Positions 55,935-57,579 of a stretch of DNA of 64,000 nt are shown piece after piece; position 1 is the first letter of the stretch; each line of letters opens with the position of its first letter. The notes beneath the pieces are model-generated. The model saw only the letters and a list, made by a program, of their open reading frames with translations, had not been told where the DNA came from and did no database searches. This DNA is from Solobacterium sp. GTDB lineage: Bacteria; Bacillota_I; Bacilli_A; Erysipelotrichales; Erysipelotrichaceae. The DNA lies in assembly GCA_017512725.1 (NCBI GenBank), contig JAFWEW010000031.1, positions 62,001-126,000 of the forward strand. The letters run 5' to 3'. Made by a program: the position numbers and the translations under genes.

Positions 55935-55963
55935 TTGAACCGGTACCGGAAGAAAGTTAGAAT
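55935..55963 (+). promoter_or_regulatory. Sigma-A promoter of a structured leader
   Basis: TTGAAC (55935-55940), 17-base spacer, TAGAAT (55958-55963). Transcription should start near 55969-55971, at the first base of the leader structure. Confidence 0.65.
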
Positions 55964-55968
55964 AATGG

Positions 55969-56079
55969 TGCATCGGAGGACAGTGTGCCGTAGCACAGGG
56001 GATCGTAAGCGTTGGCTTGCAGGCCGCCTGTTGGATAAGATGTCGGGTGAGCCCGGTCTGTTTTTTGGCCGGGTTTTTT
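55969..56079 (+). ncRNA. Structured leader RNA with terminator before GNAT gene
   Basis: About 110 bases from the promoter to an intrinsic terminator. It can fold as a three-way junction: P1 GCATC/GATGT, P2 TGTGC/GCACA with a CGTA loop, and P3 ACAGG/CCTGT enclosing GTAAGC/GCTTGC. Then CCCGG/CCGGG with T run (56052-56079) makes a terminator. The ribosome-binding site of the acetyltransferase gene follows immediately. The plan is that of a riboswitch; I cannot place it in a known class. Confidence 0.55.
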
Positions 56080-56101
56080 ATATCCGGCAGGAGGTATGAA
56101 A

Positions 56102-56644
56102 ATGTGTAAAACAGATGTAATGTTGGTTCCATTAACCGAAGAAGACAGAGAAGCGTTCATTAAAGATAATCAGTGGGCGTTCAAGTATGGTGCGACGAAA
56201 GAATTCGGAATGCGCGATAACCATTTCGAGGAAGAAGGAGAGATCATCTCCAGAGCGACAATCGAGCAGGCCATCGATCATGGCGAAGCGTACCGGATCG
56301 TCTGTGACGGGAAAAAGGTCGGCGGAGTGATTATTCGTGTGGAAGGGAACCGGGGTGACCTTGAGATCCTGTTTGTCAATCCGGATGTTCACAGTAAGGG
56401 GATCGGCTATGCCGCCTGGTGCGCAGTTGAAAAGATGCATCCGGAAGTGGATGTATGGGAAACGGTAACACCGTATTTCGAAACCCGGAACATTCATTTT
56501 TATGTCAACCGATGCGGATTCCATATCGTTGAGTTTTATAACTCACACCATCCTGAACCGAATAATCCCGCTGAAGGACATTATGAAGTGGAAGAAGACG
56601 GATCAATGGACGGGATGTTCCGGTTTGAAAAGAGGATTCGATAA
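56102..56644 (+). CDS. GNAT acetyltransferase under leader control
   Basis: 180 residues. VNPDVHSKGIGYAAWCAVE is the acetyl-CoA loop; FYVNRCGFHIVEF is the GNAT C-terminal part. Substrate unknown. AGGAGG lies seven bases before this ATG; another ATG two codons upstream is only one base from it and is less likely. The gene follows a promoter, a structured leader and a terminator, so its expression is likely to be ligand- or translation-controlled. Confidence 0.88.
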   Translation: MCKTDVMLVPLTEEDREAFIKDNQWAFKYGATKEFGMRDNHFEEEGEIISRATIEQAIDHGEAYRIVCDGKKVGGVIIRVEGNRGDLEILFVNPDVHSKGIGYAAWCAVEKMHPEVDVWETVTPYFETRNIHFYVNRCGFHIVEFYNSHHPEPNNPAEGHYEVEEDGSMDGMFRFEKRIR

Positions 56645-56742
56645 GCGCTGTCAGCTGGAAGGATCTGTTTTCTTTTGCATGTCTGCAAACAAGTATAATG
56701 AGATCAGAACTTCCCCCGGACACAAAAGACCGGGATGAAAGG

Positions 56743-57579
56743 ATGAAGCATATGATCGAGAAAACATACAGCACAAGATGCGGAACGATTCATTACTGGA
56801 CCAATGAAATGACCGGTCCTGCGGCACTTGTATTTCTGCCTGGCCTGACTGCGGATCACCGTCTGTTTGAGAAACAGATTGAATATTTCCAGAATAAGTA
56901 CCGCGTACTCGTATGGGATGCCCCGGGACATGCGGCATCCTGGCCGTTTGAGTTCTCCTTTGACCTGAAAGACAAAGCAGTCTGGCTGGATGAGATCCTG
57001 CAGCAGGAAGGAATCGAATCCCCTGTTATCATCGGACAGTCGATGGGCGGCTATGTGGGGCAGATGTACTCCCAGCTGTATCCGGATAAGCTGAAAGGGT
57101 TTATCTCCATTGATTCTGCACCATTGCAGCGAAAGTATGTAACGGCTGCTGAGATCTGGCTGCTGAAACGGATGGAACCGGTCTATCGTCACTATCCGTG
57201 GAAGTCGCTTCTGAAAACCGGAACCAACGGAGTCGCGGAATCGGAATACGGCAGAAAACTGATGCATGAGATCATGATGACCTATGACGGGGACCAGGAA
57301 CGGTACGCAAAACTCTCCGGTCACGGATTTCAGATGCTGGCAGAAGCGATGGAGGCAGACCTTCCGTATGAACTGAAATGTCCGGCACTTCTGATCTGCG
57401 GTGAAAAAGACCATGCCGGTTCCTGTATCCGCTACAATAAGGCATGGCATAAGGAAACCGGGATCCCGATTGAATGGATCAAAGGGGCGGGTCATAATTC
57501 CAATACCGACAAACCTGAACAGATCAACGGTTTGATTGAGTCATTCGCAGAAAAACTGGATTTGGGTTCGAACGCATAA
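56743..57579 (+). CDS. Alpha/beta hydrolase
   Basis: 278 residues. FLPGLTADHRLF gives the oxyanion loop, GQSMGG (near 103-108) the nucleophile, CGEKDHAG the acid, and GAGHNSN the His. It is cytoplasmic. Start choice is between MKHM and the ATG three codons later, both near AAAGGA. Substrate unknown. Confidence 0.88.
   Translation: MKHMIEKTYSTRCGTIHYWTNEMTGPAALVFLPGLTADHRLFEKQIEYFQNKYRVLVWDAPGHAASWPFEFSFDLKDKAVWLDEILQQEGIESPVIIGQSMGGYVGQMYSQLYPDKLKGFISIDSAPLQRKYVTAAEIWLLKRMEPVYRHYPWKSLLKTGTNGVAESEYGRKLMHEIMMTYDGDQERYAKLSGHGFQMLAEAMEADLPYELKCPALLICGEKDHAGSCIRYNKAWHKETGIPIEWIKGAGHNSNTDKPEQINGLIESFAEKLDLGSNA

Follow-up and report, generated by a model that had tools for sequence, protein, structure and literature searches.

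The window, by which the whole 64-kb stretch of DNA analysed is meant, carries a structured leader RNA between a promoter and a gene for a GNAT-family N-acetyltransferase. The features of the locus are as follows.

55935..55963, + strand: sigma-70-type promoter, TTGAAC at 55935-55940, a 17-base spacer and TAGAAT at 55958-55963
55970-56079, + strand: conserved structured leader RNA, starting at about 55970
55971..56042, + strand: hairpin 1 of the putative aptamer (pair counts in alignments A1, A3 and A4; covariance-model match)
55971-55974/56039-56042, + strand: P1, CAUC/GAUG, part of hairpin 1
55975-55978 / 56033-56038, + strand: conserved internal loop GGAG / GGAUAA of hairpin 1, between P1 and P2
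55979-55983/56028-56032, + strand: P2, part of hairpin 1
55984..55997, + strand: P3 hairpin with apical loop CGUA at 55989-55992 (stem covariation; loop co-variation with the P5 loop)
55998..56027, + strand: peripheral insertion GGGGAUCG-P4-CAGGCCGC, which makes a three-way junction (comparative alignment)
56006-56010/56015-56019, + strand: P4 with loop GUUG, inside the peripheral insertion
56043..56056, + strand: P5 hairpin UCGGG-UGAG-CCCGG, the putative antiterminator, with loop UGAG at 56048-56051 (covariation; fold of the truncated transcript)
56052..56079, + strand: intrinsic terminator CCCGGUC/GGCCGGG plus six U, arms 56052-56058/56067-56073, hairpin -15.6 kcal/mol
56090..56094, + strand: Shine-Dalgarno GGAGG, read from the sequence
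56102..56644, + strand: GNAT-family N-acetyltransferase gene, 180 aa (Pfam Acetyltransf_1, E 1.3e-6)

The original prediction placed a TTGAAC/TAGAAT promoter with 17-base spacing so that the RNA would begin at P1. Both the sequence and the homologues agree with this placement, as a TANNNT box resembling a -10 element ends 6-9 bases 5' of P1 in 34 of 88 homologues, where 12.5 would be expected. The terminator was likewise expected directly ahead of the ribosome-binding site, and its six U end at 56079, followed by the GGAGG and the GNAT gene. The riboswitch- or attenuator-type layout proposed for the locus thus corresponds to a cis-acting, terminator-controlled leader whose promoter starts the RNA at P1. 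The likelier start of the GNAT gene, judged from the sequence, is the ATG at 56102 rather than the listed open reading frame start at 56096, because the gap from GGAGG is 7 bases for the former versus 1 base for the latter and the homologues agree. A sequence search of the protein against solved structures found no useful relative. An alpha/beta hydrolase gene with its own promoter-like TTGCAT/TATAAT lies 3' of the GNAT gene (56698-57579); in locus L056 the GNAT gene is likewise followed by a hydrolase, 36% identical to that of the window, the sole other such case among the leader loci examined.

Conservation and architecture of the leader

Minimum-energy folding of the complete leader gave a z-score of -2.65 and a fold that differs from the comparative structure, with hairpin 1 misplaced. 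When the transcript was folded only up to 56060, before the 3' arm of the terminator, the minimum-energy fold was the comparative structure, namely hairpin 1 plus P5. Eight other species of the genus carry the leader, mostly before the same GNAT gene, while in one relative (G030) it precedes a MATE gene. The alignment of nine sequences with P1-P5 has 98% of its cells paired and seven pairs changed on both sides, a number reached by 0 of 500 shuffles. The same proportion of paired cells (98%) was obtained for 37 short forms, in which P1 covaries between CAUC/GAUG, CACC/GGUG and CGUC/GACG. In an alignment of 89 distinct sequences, fitted to the covariance model and hence biased towards it, 97.2% of cells are paired, compared with 24-46% in slid controls; both partners vary in 15 of 16 pairs, and covariation is present in every helix. 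The P3 stem, for example, occurs as UGUGC/GCACA, UACGC/GCGUA and UAUGC/GCAUA, and the P5 stem changes from CGGG/CCCG to CGAG/CUCG. Pairing is therefore kept among homologues, and the loss of it that would have counted against the original prediction was not seen.

R2, a covariance model of the 37 short forms from distant bacteria with the window's genus left out, matches the window at 55968-56059 with E=2.4e-9. No other match below E=1 was found in the 64 kb, and the element is present as a single copy in the window's genome. It is near certain that 55970-56079 is a real cis-regulatory RNA.

The core common to all homologues consists of hairpin 1 and P5, whose loops co-vary. An earlier inventory of the structure had listed P1, the CGUA hairpin, a third stem (here 56006-56019) and the terminator, all of which are present, and had overlooked P5. 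The three-way junction that it described does exist, formed by P2, P3 and P4, but as a peripheral elaboration of hairpin 1, since P4 is missing in many homologues. The insertion at 55998-56027 is frequent in the GNAT-linked subtype, absent from the GNAT-linked short forms L056, L259, L261, L282, L284 and L288, and absent from most pump-linked forms. Where it occurs, as in the window and in L258, L262, L278-L281, L283, L285 and L287, GGGGAUCG-P4-CAGGCCGC is nearly invariant across Erysipelotrichales and Clostridia, though the core works without it. Copy number also varies: L331 has a tandem pair of divergent hairpin 1 copies ahead of a MATE gene, and L273/L336 and L274/L337 each represent two elements close to one operon.

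The conserved GGAG of the internal loop is part of a GGAGG (55975-55979) that is followed by a GTG frame staying open in the window. A short open reading frame translated from this site could in principle control the terminator through ribosome stalling, as leader peptides do for some antibiotic-resistance genes. Such a leader-peptide attenuator has a very slim chance of being correct and was rejected on the homologues, among which the frame is not conserved: differences in P4 length are not multiples of three, and the sequence between the conserved ends varies freely with pairing retained. The GGAGG is moreover conserved in Bacteroidales, which rarely use Shine-Dalgarno sequences.

Distribution and downstream genes

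R1, a model built from the nine genus-level sequences, matches 31 of 294 genomes of the window's order, and its matches include short versions without P4 that precede MATE, ABC, GNAT and other genes. Using R2, the element was found in sampled genomes of the window's order (35/274), of the class of Clostridium methylpentosum (18/341) and of the order to which the Oscillospiraceae genome of L119 belongs (39/278). A scan of the collection with a pattern of the 5' and 3' consensus gave at least 80 loci; after chance matches in coding sequence were dropped (about eleven of 84 pattern matches, in unrelated genomes), at least about 73 sites are left. Sites among the matches listed fall in Lachnospiraceae, Oscillospiraceae, Bacteroidales, Coriobacteriia, Spirochaetes and others, and many of the records originate in gut or rumen samples. 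Viral contigs gave one match only, which lies inside a coding region and was taken as chance.

The same GNAT family lies immediately 3' of the leader in about 40 loci. Elsewhere the leader class precedes MATE, ABC and MFS exporters and cytidylate-kinase-like proteins (PF13189), in Clostridia, Bacteroidales, Coriobacteriia and Erysipelotrichales, and outside the window's lineage most members stand before MATE or ABC exporters. These assignments come from a Pfam scan of ten downstream proteins (nine family representatives and one 43-aa protein), with the remainder sorted by eye on sequence similarity. The class is accordingly not GNAT-specific. The MATE, ABC, MFS and GNAT genes are mutually unrelated but fit detoxification; no obvious fit is seen for the cytidylate-kinase-like and glucosidase genes. 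Where the original prediction allowed that the RNA might sense the enzyme's own substrate, such as an antibiotic or amine, the gene set points to some toxic small molecule without singling out a named compound.

Two arrangements stand apart. In L055 and L057 the sole downstream gene seen encodes a basic, helical-looking protein of 43 residues (MNANTKIALLEARLRKLEVRKQYNSGVQQKIRRQ...) with no Pfam match. In L028/L037 (G108) the terminator and the usual start codon are absent just after the leader, and a GTG within the P5 loop region opens the GNAT frame; this may reflect an error of assembly or a form of the switch that acts on translation.

Probable loop-loop contact and proposed switch

The apical loop of hairpin 1 is of the CGNA type and that of P5 of the UGNG type, and the two change together. 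Among the sequences retrieved with the P5 loop left free, counted without regard to kinship, UGCG in P5 occurs with CGCA in 25 cases, CGGA in two and CGUA in one, and UGAG occurs with CGUA in 39 and CGCA in three. The same set holds one UGGG with CCCA, and L335 combines UGUG in P5 with CGUA. CGCA:UGCG and CCCA:UGGG are both full Watson-Crick complements, so the change between them is compensatory. This co-variation implies a kissing contact between hairpin 1 and P5, in which the CGUA loop of P3 would be the partner of the P5 loop in the window. The pairing scheme of the window's subtype is uncertain, as CGUA:UGAG offers three of four pairs (C-G, U.G and A-U) around a G.A opposition.

The loop types do not follow the downstream gene strictly. 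CGCA/UGCG also occurs with GNAT genes (L278, L283 and L285) and CGUA/UGAG with MATE genes (L252, L253 and L279). Since both loop states are found with both genes, the change arose repeatedly or was exchanged between genes. The loops go in concert from CGCA/UGCG to CGUA/UGAG, chiefly among members that precede GNAT genes, and this may mark a change of ligand. With its two loop types the class lends itself to studying how an RNA pocket alters its specificity.

P5 and the terminator share 56052-56056 (CCCGG) and are therefore mutually exclusive; in folding of the whole leader, the terminator outcompetes P5. A second design occurs in L250, L272, L276, L295, L297 and L299, where the 5' arm of the terminator is the GCCGGAUAAGA strand of P1/P2. 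Because the terminator overlaps P5 in one design and P1/P2 in the other, formation of the aptamer opposes termination in both. A stable aptamer would prevent termination either way, which argues for an ON-switch, and this direction fits exporters and a modifying enzyme.

The following course of events is proposed. Transcription would start at P1, and hairpin 1 would fold first and expose its CGUA loop (CGCA elsewhere). The short P5 hairpin would form next, exposing UGAG (UGCG elsewhere). A small-molecule ligand would stabilise the loop-loop contact and so hold P5. Without ligand, the nascent GGCCGGG arm would capture CCCGG, the 3' strand of P5, completing the terminator and stopping transcription before the gene. 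With ligand, the polymerase would read through into the acetyltransferase, or into the exporter in relatives, and the protein would then remove or modify the toxic compound.

The leader has the general features of riboswitches: a structured, covarying 5' leader, non-homologous downstream genes and an expression platform. Many conserved terminator leaders act through a protein or an RNA, and ligand binding is here inferred, as are the ON direction and the kind of compound that would be bound. That an RNA-binding protein or a trans-acting RNA recognises the leader, and not a small molecule, is nevertheless unlikely, given that numerous unrelated genes in several phyla have the element ahead of them, that its conserved unpaired bases (GGAG, GAUAA and the two loops) are typical of aptamers, and that no candidate protein travels with it. 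The leader probably belongs to a riboswitch-like class of wide distribution, as an ON attenuator that blocks an intrinsic terminator ahead of detoxification genes.

Comparison with known riboswitches

Rfam 15, searched at gathering and at permissive thresholds, gave no real match in the window and none in eight divergent homologue loci. Matches to mir-128 and anti-hemB had E above 1 and were dismissed as chance. The literature searched, supplementary alignments of motif screens and subscription journals excepted, yielded no description of the motif. Rfam 15 is without guanidine-IV, and none of its models matches seven guanidine-IV-like leaders found before SMR exporters (L188, L189, L192, L193, L228, L229 and L230), which makes the lack of an Rfam match a poor argument for novelty. 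Whether the class is undescribed is about evenly balanced. The fuller proposal, of an undescribed and widespread riboswitch class of gut anaerobes in which a toxic small molecule, bound through a kissing-loop pocket, turns on exporters or an acetyltransferase, has roughly an even chance of holding.

Guanidine-IV consists of two hairpins with loop-loop pairing, acts as a terminator-preventing ON-switch and has GNAT and MATE genes among its targets (PMC7736828, PMC9788692, PMC11611296). Gd4v, a guanidine-IV variant of extremely similar sequence, lies mostly before a transaminase (PMC9788692). The leader shares with guanidine-IV the loop-joined hairpins, the switch logic, the GNAT and MATE genes and the occurrence in gut bacteria, and from the overlap of the controlled genes a guanidine-like or amine ligand may be guessed. 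It is highly unlikely, on the comparison with the seven leaders, that the leader itself is a guanidine-IV riboswitch or a Gd4v motif with guanidine or a guanidine-like compound as its ligand. These were called guanidine-IV-like by features, not by match to a published sequence: they precede SMR genes in two phyla and carry a GCC/GGC pseudoknot and a conserved terminator tip, in which GGYC and AG are spaced as positions 66-72 of the L. lactis RNA. They differ in sequence from the present class. R3, a model of the seven, recovers its members at about E 1e-12 or better and has no match to the leader class in 30 sources, the window included. R1 and R2 in turn do not match the seven, and they found no leader of the class in 46 SMR loci, gathered from Eggerthellaceae and Clostridia; an SMR search in the window's phylum gave weak matches only. 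Downstream of the leader class no SMR gene (sugE/emrE) and no transaminase (PRK07324) was noticed, these being the commonest targets of guanidine-IV and Gd4v. Published guanidine-IV has a single conserved CG dimer, whereas the leader class has several. As the covariance models do not detect each other's leaders in either direction, the class is not guanidine-IV; nor is it the closely similar Gd4v, whose near-identity to the guanidine-IV consensus outside D1-D4 was not seen for this class in the same model comparisons.

Should the present leader prove to be a riboswitch, its ligand would be a compound that many gut bacteria need to export or acetylate, and it could be tracked down with the RNA, the exporters and the GNAT in combination. 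MATE, ABC and cytidylate-kinase-like proteins that are so far uncharacterised would also acquire a common inducer. The leader would further be a second, apparently unrelated RNA with the kissing-loop-against-terminator design of guanidine-IV.

Among known systems, guanidine-I and guanidine-III (RF00442 and RF01763) resemble the class in controlling efflux and detoxification genes, but Rfam detects them in the SMR control loci and not in the window or the eight homologue loci. Gd4v is likewise a gut-associated orphan, a terminator ON-switch with GNAT and MATE genes downstream, but its guanidine-IV-like sequence and its transaminase target do not hold for the leader class. Guanidine-IV (the mepA or GGAM-1 motif) differs in its conserved bases and in its SMR (sugE) targets, which are not seen here, yet it shares with the class the pairing of two hairpin loops that excludes an intrinsic terminator, the ON direction and the MATE and GNAT genes.
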